Source of the DNA: Fibrobacter sp. UWH4
Lineage (GTDB): Bacteria; Fibrobacterota; Fibrobacteria; Fibrobacterales; Fibrobacteraceae
Length of the DNA: 64,000 nucleotides
Direction: 5' to 3'
Assembly: GCF_900142475.1 (NCBI RefSeq)
Contig: NZ_FRAY01000003.1
Location: forward strand, 62,001 to 126,000
The position numbers were made by a program, and so were the translations under genes. Below, piece by piece: positions 24,462 through 47,815 of this stretch (within the stretch, counting starts at the first letter, position 1; each line of letters opens with the position of its first letter). The notes beneath the pieces are model-generated. The model was not told the origin of the DNA, made no database searches, and saw only the letters and a program-made list of their open reading frames with translations.

Positions 24462-25103
24462 ATGATTGATTTTCTCGCAAAATATTTTCGCTTCCCGCTG
24501 GCATTGGTGCTCTCCTTCGTGGTGAGTGCGGTGTTCTTCCTTGCGATTCCGGTCATCAATACGCTTTTCTTCGATAAGGGCGTCAAGACGGAAAAGGAAC
24601 TGGAATCGGTGACGGAAGTCGAGGTTCTCGTGAGCGAGAAGAAACCCGAGGTCAAGCAGAAGGTGCTGCGTACCATGATGAATCCAAACCCGTTCAAGAT
24701 TTCGGCGAATATGGGCGTGTCCCGTAGCCAGAATTTCCAAATGGATCTGTCGCTGGCGCGCGGTGCCGCCGGTGATGGCGTGGCCGTAGGGACGGGCTCG
24801 ATGGAAAATGTCGTTTACGAAGCGGGTGAGGTGGATGAACAGGCGCAGGTGTTGCGTGAAATCCAGCCGAAGTTCCCCGAAAAGGCGAAGCGTATGGGCG
24901 TTTCGGGTTATGTGAAGGTCTTGATTGTGATTGATGTGTATGGCGACGTGGCGCAGGCCCAGGTGCTGACGCAGGAGCCGCCCGGATATGGATTTGACAA
25001 CGAAGCCTTGAAGGCCGTAAGACAGTGGAAGTTCAGCCCGGCGCAGCTGGGCGGTTTCCCCGTGGCGCAGAAAGCCACAAAGGAGTTCCGCTTTGTTAAC
25101 TAG
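24462..25103 (+). CDS. tonB: TonB energy-transducing protein
   Basis: 213 residues. N-terminal inner-membrane helix (FPLALVLSFVVSAVFFLAIPVI), a short periplasmic linker without the usual long Pro-Lys spacer, and a C-terminal TonB domain (QPKFPEKAKRMGVSGYVKVLIVIDVYGDVAQAQVL...NEALKAVRQWKFSPA) that would contact the TonB box of outer-membrane receptors. The short linker is typical of TonB2-type proteins, which depend on TtpC to span the periplasm. ATG 24462 is chosen because the upstream frame runs into the hairpin repeat. No TonB-dependent receptor is encoded in this window. Confidence 0.9.
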   Translation: MIDFLAKYFRFPLALVLSFVVSAVFFLAIPVINTLFFDKGVKTEKELESVTEVEVLVSEKKPEVKQKVLRTMMNPNPFKISANMGVSRSQNFQMDLSLARGAAGDGVAVGTGSMENVVYEAGEVDEQAQVLREIQPKFPEKAKRMGVSGYVKVLIVIDVYGDVAQAQVLTQEPPGYGFDNEALKAVRQWKFSPAQLGGFPVAQKATKEFRFVN

Positions 25104-26103
25104 GGTTCGAGGTACGAGGTGTGAGGTCGCCTTGCTCGCGACCTCATTACTATTATTGATTTTTCTACCTGTATTTTCGTATGCTGCTGAAGATTATTTC
25201 TTCAAGGCGAATGAGTTGTACGACCAGGGAAAATATAAGGAAGCGGTGCCGCTGTACCGTGCGGCGATAGACGAAGGCCGCTATGAGCCCTTTGCCTGGT
25301 TCAACTTGGGAAACGCCTTGGTGCTGCTTGACCGCAAGCAGGTCGCGATGGTGGCGTACAAGCGCACCGTGGAACTTTTGCCGACGTTTGAAAAGGCCTG
25401 GATGCTCCTGGGCGATCTTTATTATTTAGGTGGTGATGTGGGCGAGGCCATAGCGGCTTATAACCGCGCCATCGAACTCGGCGTGGAATCGGACCATGTG
25501 CATTTTGCCCTTGCGGAATGTTACCTTAAGGGTCGCGACTGGACGCTTGCGCAGAAGAATTTTGAACGCGCCCTGCAACTGAATCCGGACCGAATGGATG
25601 CGTGGTACGGCCTTGCCGAAGTCTACGAAAAACTCGGTGACTATGAGTACGCCATCAAGACGCTTCAGAATGCGCTTCAGATGACGGCTACCGCAGGCGC
25701 CGATGTGCACTTTACCATGGCCTACTATTACCGCAGCATGGATTCTACGCGGCAGTCCCTGAACGAGATGGAAAACGGACTCTTGATGGATCCGGAAAAT
25801 GTTTCTGCCCGCCGCTACCTCGCGCAAATGTATGTGCAGAATAATTCTCCGTGGATGGCTATCTTTACTCTCGAAGAGGGTCTCCGTCACAATAAGGGAA
25901 AGGCGGACTTGAACCTAGATTTAGGACAAATTTACTTTACCCAGAAACGCTATGACGAAGCCTTTGATTGCTATATGAGGGCTTGGCTTGCGGGTAATTC
26001 GCAGGGGCGTATCGGCGCCGAAAATGTCGGCCACGTCTTCTCGAATGCGGGCGACACAGAAAAGGCTGAAATTCTGTACAAACGAATCCGCGAAAAGAAG
26101 TAG
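25093..26103 (+). CDS. exported TPR-repeat protein of the TonB operon
   Basis: 336 residues from TTG 25093. Signal-like segment (LLATSLLLLIFLPVFSYAA) then about eight tetratricopeptide repeats (for example ANELYDQGKYKEAVPLYRAAIDEG, AWMLLGDLYYLGGDVGEAIAAYNRAIEL, AWYGLAEVYEKLGDYEYAIKTLQNAL). TPR proteins close many TtpC-type TonB operons and probably scaffold the complex in the periplasm. It overlaps the tonB stop by 11 bases. Codons 4-18 lie in a partial hairpin repeat (GAGGTACGAGGTGTGAGGTCGC...GCGACCTCAT, 25111-25147); an alternative TTG at 25132 would start within it. Confidence 0.85.
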   Translation: MLTRVRGTRCEVALLATSLLLLIFLPVFSYAAEDYFFKANELYDQGKYKEAVPLYRAAIDEGRYEPFAWFNLGNALVLLDRKQVAMVAYKRTVELLPTFEKAWMLLGDLYYLGGDVGEAIAAYNRAIELGVESDHVHFALAECYLKGRDWTLAQKNFERALQLNPDRMDAWYGLAEVYEKLGDYEYAIKTLQNALQMTATAGADVHFTMAYYYRSMDSTRQSLNEMENGLLMDPENVSARRYLAQMYVQNNSPWMAIFTLEEGLRHNKGKADLNLDLGQIYFTQKRYDEAFDCYMRAWLAGNSQGRIGAENVGHVFSNAGDTEKAEILYKRIREKK

Positions 26104-26121
26104 CTGCGATATTATATATTC

Positions 26122-26129
26122 TATATTTG
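26122..26129 (+). promoter_or_regulatory. TAnnTTTG element before the FISUMP lipoprotein
   Basis: TATATTTG, 5 bases before ATG 26135. Leaderless spacing. Confidence 0.6.
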
Positions 26130-26134
26130 CTTGT

Positions 26135-27877
26135 ATGAAGGATTACAAGAGTTTTGTTCTGTTGTCTGCGCTTTGGGTGCTATCTGCATGTGGCGATACG
26201 GCATCTTCAAGTGTCGACGAAAGCTTTAGCCTGAAATCGCCTACAGAAAGTATCGAGGCTCCGATTAAGGATGCGAGGGATAATCGCATTTATTATTCAA
26301 CCCAAATCGGAACCCAAGTCTGGCTTGAAGAAAACTTGCAGTACCAGGCGGAATCTAGCGGATGCTATGATGATGCGGATTCTAATTGCGTAAGATTTGG
26401 CCGTTTGTACACCGGTGGGCTGGAGGGACTCTGTCCCGAAAAGTTCCATATTCCCACTGAAGACGAGTGGAATGAACTGATAGGCTATGTCTCGGTTGTT
26501 CGACCGGATCAAGAACCCGCTAAAAGTTTGAAATCTTATTCCTGGTATCCGGGAACAGGTCTTTTCTCGTTTAATCTTCTTGGAGGGGGGTATCGCTGGC
26601 TGGATGGTTCTTACCGTAAACTTTATGAAGAATCCTATTTGGCGACATCGCGACCTGGTTGTTATTTACAGTTTTTACCGGGAAAGGACTATGGCTTTGT
26701 CTGCGAGGACTCCATTGCGGGGTTCTCGGTGCGTTGCCTGATGGATTCGACCAATGCAAAAGATGTATTGCCTTCTTGCGGGTCGTCGAATAAATATGAA
26801 ATCGTTCACGAAGGAAATGGCTATTATGTCTGCGACGAGAAGGGCTGGCGCCCTGCTAACAAGGCTGAGTACAGCGCTTACGGCAATAAGTGCGTCAATG
26901 GGGTTGTTGTCGAAGGGAAATTTTATCAGGACCACTATTACGATCGGTATATCTGCGATGGTGGCTTATGGAGAGAAGCAACCGAAGTGGAACGCAATAC
27001 TTACGGAAATGACTGCGTTGCGGGAAGTTCCAAAATTATTCAGGGACTTGTTGAAGATTTTAAGTATTTCGTTTGCACGGATTCCGGATTCCGCAGGACG
27101 ACGATGTGGGATTTCCCGAAAGCGGATTATTTGAACCCATCTGTGGAGTACGGAACGTTTGTTGATGCCCGCGACCAAAAAAGCTACAAGACGGTTTCTT
27201 TGGGCTCGCAGGTATGGATGGCTGAAAACTTGAATTACTCGGATAGCATTAGTTCTCCCAATCTGAAGGGAAACAGCTGGTGCTATGAGGACAATCCGTC
27301 GAATTGTGAAAAGGTGGGACGTTACTACACTTTTCTCGCGGCAATGAATTTGGATGCATCTTTTGCGGCAGACAGTGTTGAATATCCACTGATGGAAATC
27401 AATCAGGGAATTTGCCCTGACGGGTGGCGAATCCCTTCTGAAGAGGACTGGAATGCTCTCGTAAATTACATTCTACCAACCTATGGAAAGGAGGCTAATG
27501 CTTGGTGGACGTCATCGATAACTGGTGATGTCACACCGAATGATTACTATACGTTCCCCTATGCGATGAAGTCGGTTACAGGGTGGAATTTTGATTCATG
27601 GACGGAGCCGGCTAATGCGTCTGGTTTTTCATCTATTCCTATGGGACATAGGACTGAAGAAGGATCCTTTGTCGAAGTCGGTGAAAGCGATGGTTTCTGG
27701 TTGGCTTCAATCCATAAGTCGCAAACCTTTATCGCGGGGGCTCCGGCGGGAATGGATGTTGCTAGCTTGAAATATGCTCCCATTGCCTCTGATATGAGGT
27801 CTTGGGAGCTTAACGGCTGGAACTTTAATTTGAGAACCCGGAAGTCCGGATATCCTATTCGTTGCGTCAAGAATTAG
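26135..27877 (+). CDS. FISUMP lipoprotein with two Fibrobacter major paralogous domains
   Basis: 580 residues. Lipobox LSAC (Cys19). Domain 1 (about 44-210) opens with KDARDNRIYYSTQIGTQVWLEENL, includes FGRLYTGG and LCPEKFHIPTEDEWNELIGYV, and ends SVRCL. Domain 2 (about 340-580) opens VDARDQKSYKTVSLGSQVWMAENL, has GICPDGWRIPSEEDWNALV and ends PIRCVKN. Between them are three copies of a small cysteine motif (YYVCDEKGWRPAN, RYICDGGLWREAT, YFVCTDSGFRRTT). FISUMP domains (TIGR02145) are abundant in Fibrobacter and some are linked to cellulose binding; their fold resembles SUMF1/C-type-lectin proteins by my reading of the G-W-x-I-P and RC motifs. Function here is unknown beyond envelope location. 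Confidence 0.85.
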   Translation: MKDYKSFVLLSALWVLSACGDTASSSVDESFSLKSPTESIEAPIKDARDNRIYYSTQIGTQVWLEENLQYQAESSGCYDDADSNCVRFGRLYTGGLEGLCPEKFHIPTEDEWNELIGYVSVVRPDQEPAKSLKSYSWYPGTGLFSFNLLGGGYRWLDGSYRKLYEESYLATSRPGCYLQFLPGKDYGFVCEDSIAGFSVRCLMDSTNAKDVLPSCGSSNKYEIVHEGNGYYVCDEKGWRPANKAEYSAYGNKCVNGVVVEGKFYQDHYYDRYICDGGLWREATEVERNTYGNDCVAGSSKIIQGLVEDFKYFVCTDSGFRRTTMWDFPKADYLNPSVEYGTFVDARDQKSYKTVSLGSQVWMAENLNYSDSISSPNLKGNSWCYEDNPSNCEKVGRYYTFLAAMNLDASFAADSVEYPLMEINQGICPDGWRIPSEEDWNALVNYILPTYGKEANAWWTSSITGDVTPNDYYTFPYAMKSVTGWNFDSWTEPANASGFSSIPMGHRTEEGSFVEVGESDGFWLASIHKSQTFIAGAPAGMDVASLKYAPIASDMRSWELNGWNFNLRTRKSGYPIRCVKN

Positions 27878-36843: not shown

Positions 36844-37521
36844 ATGCATTTAATCAAAGTTTGTGTAGCAGTTGTTTTATTCCAATTGTCTGTGTTTGCC
36901 GCTTCGGATGTGTGGACGGGCAATGTGGCAGAGCGTTTTAAATCTGGTATAGGAAAAATTGAAAATCCCTACATTATTTCAACGGCAGAAGAGTTTGCCT
37001 TGATGGCTAAGCGTTATTCTGATTCGGCCTATTACCGCTTGGATGCAGATATTGTTTTGAATACGGGTGACGCCAAGGATTGGGCAACGTCTGCGCCAAA
37101 GAACAAATGGACCGTTTATGGGGATACCACTAAATTTGCCCGAGTTCACTTGGACGGTAATGGGCATTCTATTAGCGGCCTTTATATCAATAGTGATAAG
37201 GACTATCAGGGCTTGTTCGGTGCTTGGAGTGGAATTGCCACGAATATCGTAATTAAGAATTCTTATGTCAAGGGGCGTGATTTTGTGGGAACCCTTGCCG
37301 GTTCTTTTGAATACGAACGATCAAGAGATTATTATAATCCGTTTGGAAATAGGGCGGGTGGAAATGTTGAAAATATTGAAGCAGATGTGATTGTTGAAGG
37401 ACGCAAGTTTGTGGGCGGCCTAGTCGGTTTAGCAGGGGCAACTCGGCTAAATTCAGTAGTTCTTGGAGGATTAATTACTCAAAAAAAGAACGTATTTCAG
37501 AATATGATTTTAATGTATTGA
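36844..37521 (+). CDS. GLUG-repeat surface protein, 5' part in frame 0
   Basis: 225 residues before the stop. Signal peptide (MHLIKVCVAVVLFQLSVFAA), then the standard opening of GLUG/right-handed-helix proteins: GIGKIENPYIISTAEEFALMAKRYSD, FARVHLDGNGHSISGLYI, YQGLFGAWSGIATNIVIKNSYVKGRDFVGTLAG, VEGRKFVGGLVGLAGATRLNSVVLGG. Coding homology then continues in the -1 frame: after ITQKK (AAG at 37486-37488) frame 0 runs only to TGA 37519. At the junction stands A-AAA-AAG (37482-37488), in the correct phase for -1 slippage. A fused product would have about 1216 residues. Either a homopolymer change or frameshifting is needed to make it. Confidence 0.75.
   Translation: MHLIKVCVAVVLFQLSVFAASDVWTGNVAERFKSGIGKIENPYIISTAEEFALMAKRYSDSAYYRLDADIVLNTGDAKDWATSAPKNKWTVYGDTTKFARVHLDGNGHSISGLYINSDKDYQGLFGAWSGIATNIVIKNSYVKGRDFVGTLAGSFEYERSRDYYNPFGNRAGGNVENIEADVIVEGRKFVGGLVGLAGATRLNSVVLGGLITQKKNVFQNMILMY
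37481..37488 (+). promoter_or_regulatory. possible -1 slippery site A-AAA-AAG in the GLUG gene
   Basis: Seven A followed by G; in frame 0 the codons are CAA AAA AAG, giving the heptamer A-AAA-AAG known to promote -1 slippage on bacterial ribosomes. No strong downstream stem or upstream Shine-Dalgarno-like stimulator is obvious, so an indel in the run is an equal explanation. Confidence 0.4.
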
Positions 37522-40493
37522 ATATCGACGTGTCGGGAAGTGTTAAGGCAGACTCTGTTGTCGGAGGTGTATTTGGAAGCGTGTTCGAAGCAAGAAAAAG
37601 TATGGGGTTAATAAATCGGGCTTCTGTGACAGGATCTTTGAAGGTGGGAGGGATTTGCGGTGAGCTTGCTTGTAGATCAGGGCTGATTCAGCATAATTTT
37701 AATTTCGGAACAGTTAAAGGTTCCGATGCGGTAGCTGGATTAATAGGTTATTTTGAAATTTCCGATAGGTATAATTTCAATGAATTGGAAAATCTTGCTA
37801 ATCTGGGAAATGTATCGGGAAATAGTAGGGTGGCTGGATTATTGAATTCAAGTCGCGGACGGGTTTCCAATTCTTACAATGCGGGCTCGGTTGTTGGGGA
37901 AGATAAGGTGTCGTCACTGTTTTTAAATGATACCTGTTCTCGCAAATGCCTAGACTCTTTGCATCTATATGACTTTTCTGAAGAACATATAGATTCTATT
38001 CATGCGTATGCGGACTCAATGGGGGCATACTTCTTCCCAGATACGGGGGCAAAGCCTATCAATAGAGGTTATCCCTTGTCGGCTTATTTTTATTCAGACA
38101 TGTTGTTTGACCATGGGCGTGGTACATTCGAAGATCCGTTCTTGATTGGATCGTTACATGATTTACGCCGCTTTGAACGTCATGCTGGAGTGAATCTAAC
38201 TCGCTATACAACGGAAAAATCTTTTTTTAGACAAACGGCCGATATTGTTTTTCCGAAGGAGGATAACGAATGGACTCCTGTAACAGCAAACAACATTGTT
38301 TATGATGGCGACGGTCATTCTGTATCTGGTTTTGCTATTCATGATACATGGCTGGATTTAGATGCGTTGTCTTCAATTGATTCGTCTTTGCTGTTTGGTG
38401 ATTATTGGTCTAAAAATTGGCGCCAAAGCTTTCCTCAAGCCAATTATTGTTCTGGATTTTTCAAATATCTAGAAGAATCAACGATTGATAATTTAAAACT
38501 TAAAGATATTGATGTCGAAGGTGATTTGGCTGTCGGAGGTCTCTTAGGGTGTACAAGTTCTAATACATCAGATAATGTCATTTTGTCACGCGTTTCTGTA
38601 GATGGAAGTGTGAAGGGTCTTGTTATGGTTGGCGGTATTGGCGGAAACTTACGTGCCAAGTTATATGATGTTGCAAACTTTGCGACTGTAACAGGATCAA
38701 AATATGTTTCTGGAATAATGAATGAGGCTGATCCCGGATTAGGAATGTATCGCTTTGTCCGAAATCATGGTGATGTGACTGGATATGCTTATGTGGCTGG
38801 AATTGCGAGCGAAAGGCAGTCTCGTTCATGGCTTATGTATGCTCCGGAATACTATGTCTATAACAGGGGGAATATTTCTGCACAAGAAGGACCTGCAGGT
38901 GGGTTATTCGCAGAAGCCACTATTAGAAACGAGGGCCATGTATTACATGGCGCCTACAATGCGTCCAATGTGTCAGCGAAAAGAGTATATGGAGCATTTT
39001 ATGGTGATTTGTATACCGATATGGATTTAAAAGAATGTTTAGATTCAATGCTTTATGATAAGAATTTGATGTCTGACCCGAGGAATGTGTACTTGATAAG
39101 CTTTAGTTCTGATACTACGATTGTATCTGATGTTACTGTTGCTTCTGTTGATTCAAAAACGCTTAAGTCTGCTGGAGCAAAGGAATTGGGTGTCTTTTAT
39201 GGCGTTGATGAAAATAATGAAAATGACGGATATCCTGTATTTCATTTCCTTAATGGCGACGGCTCTTCTGAATCTCCGTACATTATAGCTACGGCAGAGG
39301 ATTTTTGGAAACTATATGATTTGATTTATAGGGATCCTCGTTCACCTAATCATTACAGTAATTCGAATTATAAGTTAGTTGCTGATATCAATTTGAATGC
39401 ATCGGCAAAGAGGCCTTGGATGCCAGTAAGTTTGGGGCCGTGGGGCACTTTTGATGGTGGAGGACATACTGTTTCGGGAATTTATGTGGATACGACCGTG
39501 AAAACGTACAGTAATGATGCTGTTTATGCTGGACTATTTAGAGAAAATCTTGGAACAATCAAAAATTTAGGTATTGCGGATTCCTATATCTTTGGTGATA
39601 CGGCGGGTGCTGTTGTTGCTGTAAATGCTGGCATTATTGAAAACTGCTGGAATAAAAATGCTGTCGTGGAAGCTACTGATGTTGCGGGGGGTATTGCTGG
39701 TGTAATGAGATCCGGTCATATTCATCCTGTTTCAACTCGTTGGCCGGAAAGTGATGAGGAACAACGGGCTATTGCAAATCATGATGTTTTTATAAATAAA
39801 ACATACAACGGAGGTGTTGTTCGCGGAAATTATAGTGCTGGGATTGTTGGGTATGTCCTGTTTGATGATTTTAAAGATGGCTATATATCCCGCAATGTTG
39901 TGAAGTCTCGTGTGGCAAATAGTTATAATGTGGGCGAGGCTTTGAATGGTATTGTAGGTTCTATTTATGGAAGTAAAAATTTCTTGTATTATCACGACAT
40001 TCATTTCGAAATTGTGAATGTTTATAATGCTGACAAGAGATGCCATAAAATATCAAGTGACGATGCAGAATTTGCTGTAAATGCATATTATGTAGTAATG
40101 GGTCAAGAAGAATGTAAAGATATTGGGATTTCTCAAGCAATCGATGAAATGAAAACCAAGAACTTTGCGAAAAAAATGGGGGAGGCGTTTAAGTATGATG
40201 CCGATGGAGTGAACAACGGTTTTCCGATTTTTTCAGACAAGAGGGGGCTTGATCCCGATGCTCCTATTAGCATCGGACAGCGGCCTTTTATCTACAAGGC
40301 GCTACAGGTGAGTGTCATTGACCGCGAAATTCATCTTAATAATTTAGTTAATGGCGCAAATACAGCTCTGTTCGACCTGAGCGGCAAACGCGTGTGGAAT
40401 GGAACGGGAAAATCTGCCGTAATTCCTGTCCAGAAGGCGGGCGTGTATATTGTCCGGAACAAGTACCAGATAAAAAAAGTGATTATTCGTTAG
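37518..40493 (+). CDS. GLUG-repeat surface protein, 3' part in the -1 frame, with sorting tail
   Basis: 991 residues from the nominal TTG 37518; the frame is open back to the A-run at 37481-37487 and reads INYSKKERISEYDFNVLNIDVSG. Many GLUG units (VVGGVFGSV, KVGGICGEL, AVAGLIGYF, RVAGLLNSS, VSGIMNEA, VAGIASE, GPAGGLFAEA, AGIVGYVL) separated by G-x-F-E/S-S/D-P-Y/F-x-I-x2-A-E-D openings of new modules. The last 60 residues (LNNLVNGANTALFDLSGKRVWNG...VIPVQKAGVYIVRNK...KKVIIR) have the shape of a type IX-like C-terminal sorting domain. Much richer in AT than its neighbours. There is no good ribosome-binding site at 37518, so independent translation is unlikely. Confidence 0.75.
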   Translation: MNIDVSGSVKADSVVGGVFGSVFEARKSMGLINRASVTGSLKVGGICGELACRSGLIQHNFNFGTVKGSDAVAGLIGYFEISDRYNFNELENLANLGNVSGNSRVAGLLNSSRGRVSNSYNAGSVVGEDKVSSLFLNDTCSRKCLDSLHLYDFSEEHIDSIHAYADSMGAYFFPDTGAKPINRGYPLSAYFYSDMLFDHGRGTFEDPFLIGSLHDLRRFERHAGVNLTRYTTEKSFFRQTADIVFPKEDNEWTPVTANNIVYDGDGHSVSGFAIHDTWLDLDALSSIDSSLLFGDYWSKNWRQSFPQANYCSGFFKYLEESTIDNLKLKDIDVEGDLAVGGLLGCTSSNTSDNVILSRVSVDGSVKGLVMVGGIGGNLRAKLYDVANFATVTGSKYVSGIMNEADPGLGMYRFVRNHGDVTGYAYVAGIASERQSRSWLMYAPEYYVYNRGNISAQEGPAGGLFAEATIRNEGHVLHGAYNASNVSAKRVYGAFYGDLYTDMDLKECLDSMLYDKNLMSDPRNVYLISFSSDTTIVSDVTVASVDSKTLKSAGAKELGVFYGVDENNENDGYPVFHFLNGDGSSESPYIIATAEDFWKLYDLIYRDPRSPNHYSNSNYKLVADINLNASAKRPWMPVSLGPWGTFDGGGHTVSGIYVDTTVKTYSNDAVYAGLFRENLGTIKNLGIADSYIFGDTAGAVVAVNAGIIENCWNKNAVVEATDVAGGIAGVMRSGHIHPVSTRWPESDEEQRAIANHDVFINKTYNGGVVRGNYSAGIVGYVLFDDFKDGYISRNVVKSRVANSYNVGEALNGIVGSIYGSKNFLYYHDIHFEIVNVYNADKRCHKISSDDAEFAVNAYYVVMGQEECKDIGISQAIDEMKTKNFAKKMGEAFKYDADGVNNGFPIFSDKRGLDPDAPISIGQRPFIYKALQVSVIDREIHLNNLVNGANTALFDLSGKRVWNGTGKSAVIPVQKAGVYIVRNKYQIKKVIIR

Positions 40494-45657: not shown

Positions 45658-46979
45658 TTTTCTTGCTGAAAAATAAAGTGGGCTCCTTGTTGCTCTTGTT
45701 GGTTGCAGTCTGCCTTGCGGGGTGCAGTTCCGTGATGCGTCCGCCTCCGGCGGCAGCCTACATGGACAGCTACGCGAAGGACGGCGCAATCGGGAGTTTA
45801 GGACTGTCGTATTATGCGGGCGACCTGGAAAACGGCAAGCACGAGAACAAGTCCTATAGCCATTACAGCTATGCCGAGTGGTGGGGTGACGTGAACCTCG
45901 CCGGCTATATCAGCGGAGGGTATTTCACCTTCGGGATGGGCTACCAGACTTTTTCTCCCTTCATGCAGATGGGCTTTGTCTCTCCCTATTTTGGGTTTAC
46001 GGCCTGGAGCGACATGAATGCGCTTGCCATTCCCGCGATAAAATCCAGTGAACGCGGCGCTCTGTGGCGTTATTCCGGTGGCGGCATGGCGATTGAACAG
46101 ATTCCGCTCAATGATAGCTGGAAAATTGGTTTTACGGAACACCTTTCCAGGAACGGCCGCGAAGTTTATTTTGTCGATGACGACTGCATTTCGATTGGTT
46201 GCGGTTTCCCGAGCCCGCGGCACCGTTTCTACACGGAAGTCGGCGGCGGATTCTATGTGTCAAGGAAAATCGGGAACGAGAGCAAGGTGTCGCTGGAATT
46301 CCGCTATGGCCGCGACTTGGATGAAGACCGGAACCGCTTTGCTCTGACTTTGGATATCTGGACGTCCACCACGGCTACACTCGGCGGAAACGACGTGATG
46401 CGTTCGATGGCGAAAAAGAATGCCAAGAAAATGAGGGGAATTGATGCAGTATATGCCGACAGCTTGCGGGATGAAAATGGGAAAATCGATTCGCTGCATG
46501 CCATCAAGCGTCAGTGGTTCCGGATTCCGGATTCCTCGAAAACCATGTCGCTTGCGGAACACCCGAGTGATTCCGTGACTGCGGTTACGTCCAAGGGGAT
46601 CTGTTATGACGAAGGTTCCAGGAGTGTATGGCTCAAGCAGGATTACGGGAATACGGCCTACAGGGTGCCCGTCGATTCTTTCGATTATTGTCAACAGATG
46701 GAACGCGAAATTCTCTTTTGGCCTTCTCTGCTTGTTGGGGGTGCATCGTTCTTGCCGGGAGGGATGGCCACCAATAGCACTATGGGAGGGCTTGCTGTTG
46801 CCCTTGGTGTAGCCGTTGCTTACTGGACTGTAACGAATTTTGTGCTTGATCCCGAAGACCTTGTGCCGAAGGTCTATCCCGAATTGTGCTCCGAAAAGCA
46901 TTCCAGGGAAGAAGTTCTTGCCTGGTTGGAACAGTACCCCTGCCGTGTCGACAAACAACCGAAGGATGCTGCGAAATGA
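45654..46979 (+). CDS. lipoprotein of the outer-membrane cassette, unknown
   Basis: 441 residues. Lipobox LAGC (about residues 21-24) after MIFLLKNKVGSLLLLLVAVC. Mature protein: an aromatic N-terminal half with strand-like repeats (GSLGLSYYAGDLENG, GYISGGYFTFGMGYQTFSPFMQMGFVSPYFGFTAW) as in a second barrel-like or beta-sandwich domain, then a hydrophilic region and near the C-terminus a hydrophobic Gly/Ala-rich stretch (LLVGGASFLPGGMATNSTMGGLAVALGVAVAYW). Coupled by 4-base overlaps to both neighbours. No family recognised. Confidence 0.6.
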
Positions 46980-47815
46980 GGATGGGCGCGAAATACTTTC
47001 TGTTTGCCGCATGCGCCTTGCTGTTTGCGGCCTGCATCGACGAAGGCGTTGCGCCCAGGGACATCCGCGGGGATAAAAGGTACGATATCCCGGTCTCCAG
47101 TTCGAGCGTTGCTTCGAGTTCATCTGTGTCCCAGTCGTCGAGTTCAAAAGAATCCTTGTCGAGCGCCGAAGAAACTTCATCGAGTTCCCAGGAATCCTCG
47201 TCGAACTCTGCGCATTATACCGTCGGATATATCGCCCATAGCATTGATGCGCATTACAAGTTCACGTCATTTAGGGGTTTCACCTGGATTGCGAAAAACG
47301 AGGCTTCGGACTGTTACGATTTCTGGAAATCGGACTGCGCAGATTCGCTAGGGGTCTGCTACGACATCGATGAGGAGAATTGCGCACAGTACGGAAGGCT
47401 CTACACCTGGGCCGAGGCGATGCACCTGCCGGATTCGTGCAATTACACGCAGTGCGAATATTCGGAGAAGCAACGGAGCGTATGTACCGCTGGCTACCAT
47501 GTTGCGACCTACCAGGATTGGCAGAATCTGGACTTTGTACTGGAAGAATCATGGGACTTTGAGAATATGTCCTATTATCTGAAATCTTCTGACGAGTGGA
47601 ACGGCGTAAATCAGTTCGAGTTTAACATATTGCCCGGCGGCTACCTGCAAGACGATGATCAGTTTGTGGGGCTAGGGGAGAAAACCCGGTTCTGGGCTCC
47701 GTATGATGGTGGCTTGTCGGGCTTTATGTTATTTGACAGTTCAGATGCCGCGACATTCATTACCGAAACTCGACCGGGAAACGCCCGCGCCTATATCCGC
47801 TGCGTTCACGATTAA
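46976..47815 (+). CDS. FISUMP lipoprotein with poly-serine linker
   Basis: 279 residues. Signal MRMGAKYFLFAACALLFAAC with lipobox FAAC (Cys20), poly-serine/glutamate linker (about 41-77), then one FISUMP domain (about 85-279: FTWIAKNEASDCYDFW, YGRLYTWAEAMHLPDSC, AGYHVATYQDWQNLDFVL, FNILPGGYLQDDDQFVGLGEKTRFWAP, YIRCVHD). The domain is divergent: the DIRDG opening is replaced by HYKFTSFRG. ATG 46976 overlaps the previous stop; ATG 46982 is an alternative. Third gene of the cassette, so it may be the exposed part of a complex with the barrel. Confidence 0.75.
   Translation: MRMGAKYFLFAACALLFAACIDEGVAPRDIRGDKRYDIPVSSSSVASSSSVSQSSSSKESLSSAEETSSSSQESSSNSAHYTVGYIAHSIDAHYKFTSFRGFTWIAKNEASDCYDFWKSDCADSLGVCYDIDEENCAQYGRLYTWAEAMHLPDSCNYTQCEYSEKQRSVCTAGYHVATYQDWQNLDFVLEESWDFENMSYYLKSSDEWNGVNQFEFNILPGGYLQDDDQFVGLGEKTRFWAPYDGGLSGFMLFDSSDAATFITETRPGNARAYIRCVHD

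Follow-up and report, generated by a model that had tools for sequence, protein, structure and literature searches.

Two overlapping reading frames in the genome of Fibrobacter sp. UWH4 each encode part of a putative surface protein, and the overlap contains an in-phase A_AAA_AAG heptamer. The locus raises the question of whether the full-length protein is produced by -1 slippage at this motif, whether its gene is switched by the A run, or whether the frame was broken by a mutation or by an error in the assembly. The question was addressed in the window, by which is meant the whole 64,000-nt stretch of DNA that was analysed (G000:C3:62001-126000), taken from a 3.7 Mb Fibrobacter-genus draft genome of 22 contigs.

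Reading frames at the locus

On the forward strand, a 225-aa ORF extends from an ATG at 36844 to a TGA at 37519-37521 (36844-37521) and encodes a signal-like N-terminus and the first beta-helix segment, as assigned from the ORF list, orthology, and a structural model with a fold match to 3n6z. Its 0-frame at 37480-37488 reads CAA AAA AAG, placing A_AAA_AAG in phase at 37482-37488 (+ strand), inside an A7 run at 37481-37487. The -1 frame of the same strand is free of stops from 37398 to a stop ending at 40493, and its 37488-40493 portion encodes the remaining beta-helix and a C-terminal T9SS-like tail, as assigned by orthology, profile and fold matches. Slippage at the heptamer would join 215 and 1001 residues in a computed fusion of 1216 residues. 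An earlier, sequence-only reading of this DNA had reported the in-phase heptamer, the 225-residue 0-frame, the -1 frame to 40493 and a fusion of about 1216 residues, all of which were confirmed in the sequence. It had further held that the two frames meet exactly at the heptamer; the phase of the heptamer stands, but the frames are both open over 37398-37518 (124 nt, + strand), with open fusions obtained from 41/41 joins tried, and join scores lean upstream (see below). Because both frames are open there, any join in this overlap gives a fused protein. Besides the A7 run, the overlap holds a G4 run.

The TGA stop of the first ORF overlaps a TTG start (TTGA, 37518-37521), from which termination-reinitiation could produce a separate 991-residue protein. 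This is barely credible, given that the sequence shows no SD-like element shortly ahead of the TTG and that the product would be devoid of a signal peptide, unlike every orthologue.

Identity of the encoded protein

Both halves were aligned to the same single-frame orthologues of a Fibrobacter family with open frames of ~1160-1300 codons, and by this homology the two halves are parts of one protein. The fusion logic of the earlier reading is thereby borne out, since each orthologue is one protein that agrees with the fusion in length and architecture. AlphaFold models of the 5' and 3' halves (mean pLDDT 75 and 68, respectively) both matched the GLUG/M26-type protein of PDB 3n6z (E 3.4e-4 for the former, 6e-6 for the latter), and the tail was matched by fold with C-terminal domains of T9SS proteins, at E 0.008-0.035; the score of the tail against TIGR04183 (NCBIfam) was 17.2 bits, under the cut-off of 23. 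T9SS tails have been proposed for envelope enzymes of F. succinogenes (PMC6851124). In its entirety the gene probably encodes a beta-helix protein that is secreted (T9SS-exported) and sorted to the surface. The description of both frames as GLUG repeats holds in part: it agrees with the fold match to 3n6z and with weak Glug matches in 3/7 members of the family alignment (best E 0.038), but neither half reached the cut-off for Pfam Glug (PF07581) in a Pfam search. An intact paralogue with an open frame of 1157 aa and ~34% identity is present in the same genome, outside the window (G000:C7:90185-93628), and loss of the split gene could therefore be tolerated.

Orthologues in the genus

Orthologues were sought in 80 genomes of the genus. 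Seven full-length orthologues of 32-60% identity were recovered (60% for G008, G018, G015 and G090, 44% for G009 and G020, and 32% for G007), all of them uninterrupted single frames of 1204-1301 codons with no internal stops. More distant family members were also single-frame, and four Fibrobacter MAG loci were likewise whole, of which three coincide with the G008, G018 and G015 contigs. Conserved anchors at 37411 and 37530 lie 119 nt apart in the window versus 120 nt in the four 60% orthologues; the window is net one nucleotide short relative to its orthologues. By these comparisons, the pattern is that of a frameshift unique to this genome. An A7 or longer tract at the equivalent site was absent from every orthologue scanned (G090 was unscanned there, and forms one clade with G008). 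A 401-bp segment of junction DNA gave 37-bp matches only when searched against the 80 genus genomes, among which a sister strain was not found, and the flanking 21-mer was not found in viral contigs.

Constraint downstream of the break was assessed from amino acid replacements specific to the window and to G008, which numbered 11 vs 13 upstream and 59 vs 57 downstream. Third codon positions downstream are far more diverged than first and second positions, giving strong codon-position periodicity. The pattern of substitution argues that the downstream part was under normal constraint until very recently. As no decay is visible there, the break is recent, or is suppressed by slippage, or is an assembly error.

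In the last case, the true gene would be uninterrupted and the draft would be one base off within 37398-37518. Such an error would agree with the wholeness of all relatives and with the lack of relaxed constraint downstream, and the overlap, with its A7 and G4 runs, lies in a 22-contig draft; the genome is however nearly complete and in few contigs, and several other pairs of overlapping ORFs in the window proved, when checked with Pfam, to be different genes rather than split ones, so that errors do not appear to be rife. An error is considered unlikely.

Among the overlapping pairs, the window regions 25021-27877 and 46850-47815 encode Fib_succ_major (PF09603) proteins; taken from stop to stop, their frames share 125-130 nt with the ORF before them. 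The neighbour of 25021-27877 is a TPR protein, so both pairs look like adjacent genes and not like split ones. Noise in a mechanically compiled list of overlapping ORFs was too high for split genes to be counted from it.

Position of the frame change

The linker that joins the first conserved beta-helix segment to the second (37446-37530) is hypervariable, with ~13% identity between species and 60-70% in its flanks. Every join in the overlap was scored against orthologues G008 and G009 (BLOSUM). The best sum, 385, was obtained at 37458, and the join at A7 scored 364, 21 points worse. For calibration, artificial frameshifts were put into intact low-identity stretches; the true site was beaten by at least 21 points in 6/251 cases (3/92 at the lowest identity), and an excess of at least 21 had been seen in 0/336 cases of a smaller first calibration. 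Because of the result of the larger low-identity calibration, a first conclusion that the change is not at A7 was softened to one that it leans upstream. By codon usage, the best join was at 37428 and A7 was 4.5 nats worse; an excess this large was seen in 6% of calibrations, or in 2.4% if the best join also had to lie 30 nt or more upstream. The DNA alignment placed a gap near 37431, which was not significant in a shuffle test (p ~0.12). Homology and codon usage thus lean towards a frame change within the overlap but upstream of A7, more likely at 37428-37476, a placement that is suggestive only and is read from a linker of 13% identity.

The chance of an in-phase A_AAA_AAG per overlap was estimated as 1.5% from dinucleotide shuffles and as ~0.65% from how often it occurs in phase within genes (21 times in 399,561 coding bases). 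The motif is thus unlikely for any one overlap, and the low figure argues for some involvement of A7, but the heptamer was found by looking for one. A-runs are indel hotspots as well. The indel may have arisen at the heptamer as a hotspot, or the heptamer may be no more than a bystander.

Slippery site, SD-like element and RNA structure

A_AAA_AAG ranks among the most efficient slippery motifs in E. coli, in which SD-like stimulators have been used at a spacing of 6-17 nt (PMC4066793). At the present locus, an SD-like GGAGG at 37465-37469 (+ strand), which also encodes Gly-Gly, ends 12 nt upstream of the heptamer, within this range, and the 16S of this genome carries the anti-SD CCTCC. Together with the canonical heptamer in phase and a downstream frame that shows no decay, these elements are what would be expected if GGAGG-stimulated -1 frameshifting, programmed or otherwise useful, supplied a fraction of full-length, sortable protein. 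Background counts were taken from a 464-kb sample (the window plus 20 stretches, 347 ORFs). In-phase A_AAA_AAG occurs 21 times in the 347 sampled ORFs, 20 of them besides this one, and in one case (L067:7729-9105) an unbroken ORF of 458 codons carries the motif at codon 27, with AGGAG placed 10 nt before it. Genome-wide, GGAGG-N5-14-A7G was counted 3 times versus 2 in a reversed control, which is control level. The sequence-only reading had called for a search for structure in the 60 bases downstream; this was run, and over 60-120 nt of downstream RNA stem-loops gave z of +0.4 to +1.3, with none beyond chance (not every bacterial case has structure). No match to Rfam was found, and the heptamer with its two-frame arrangement was conserved in none of the relatives. 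With the homologous frame change possibly upstream of the heptamer in addition, frameshifting at this site is improbable. A narrower version, in which an SD-stimulated -1 shift without structure has newly arisen in one Fibrobacter lineage, yielding a low dose of full-length sortable protein and mostly a short secreted stub, is very improbable. A literature search gave nothing specific on frameshifting or phase variation in Fibrobacter.

A7 run and phase variation

Expression of the surface protein could instead be toggled by slipped-strand mispairing in the A7 run. Poly-A phase variation is known for the class to which such a tract belongs, that of homopolymers in the 5' portion of genes for surface proteins (PMC3711429), and the downstream frame is intact. 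Against this, the 347 sampled ORFs hold 54 A7 and 18 A8 or longer runs (72 A7+ runs); such runs are common in genes here, and this A7 is short and ordinary for the genome. No such run is present at the site in the orthologues scanned, and this one may lie downstream of the frame change. Phase variation, which the sequence-only reading had offered beside programmed frameshifting, is quite improbable here, and neither of these two options is upheld.

Proposed explanation

The best explanation, to which a probability of roughly 0.6 is given, is that a recent lineage-specific indel broke the frame of a gene whose product is a beta-helix surface protein, secreted and probably exported by T9SS. In this scheme the indel would leave the gene net one nucleotide short versus its orthologues and break the reading frame, and normal translation would yield a 225-residue product with a signal sequence that is devoid of most of the beta-helix and of the sorting tail. 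Because the sorting tail is missing, the short product should not reach the surface by sorting. The heptamer would be either a bystander ~10-60 nt downstream of the true change or the homopolymer hotspot of the indel, and ordinary slippage on it may yield a small amount of full-length protein; there is no indication that it was selected for such leakage. The split, its absence from every relative found, the net -1 length and the lack of structure and of decay are observations, from which we go on to infer a true mutation and a short product with no function. In the GeneTack survey, frame changes that were found in a single genome and validated by homologues were attributed either to errors of sequencing or to mutation by indel (PMC3711429). 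The earlier reading had listed sequencing error among its alternatives; the locus is best read as recently broken by an ordinary indel, or as misassembled. Counting against a recent indel are the low chance of a heptamer in the overlap (0.65-1.5%), the dependence of the upstream placement on a hypervariable linker with weak backing at the DNA level, and the lack of decay downstream, as if the downstream part were still expressed.

A canonical heptamer in an overlap looks compelling, yet the relatives show that the break is unshared and possibly not at the heptamer, and the locus is mainly a caution. If slippage were true, it would be an unusual case of non-mobile frameshifting, one that sets how much of a secreted surface protein a Fibrobacter makes.

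Comparison with known systems

The homologue-validated singleton frameshifts of GeneTack (PMC3711429) are alike in having a homologue-supported split in one genome with no conserved recoding signal; unlike them, the overlap described here happens to hold a canonical heptamer and an upstream SD-like element. Frameshifting of the dnaX type and the IS3/IS911 type, also -1, shares the same heptamer in the right phase, and a candidate SD-like GGAGG lies at a permitted distance, but here there is no stem-loop, no conservation and no known two-product logic for the protein. The poly-A phase-variable p78 of Mycoplasma fermentans (cited in PMC3711429) is likewise a surface protein with a 5' A homopolymer, whereas the tract here is only A7 and is absent in relatives. 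GLUG/M26-N beta-helix proteins (3n6z) and T9SS cargo resemble the present protein in that both of its halves match the 3n6z fold and its tail matches T9SS C-terminal domains; it differs from them in scoring under the Pfam Glug and TIGR04183 cut-offs.
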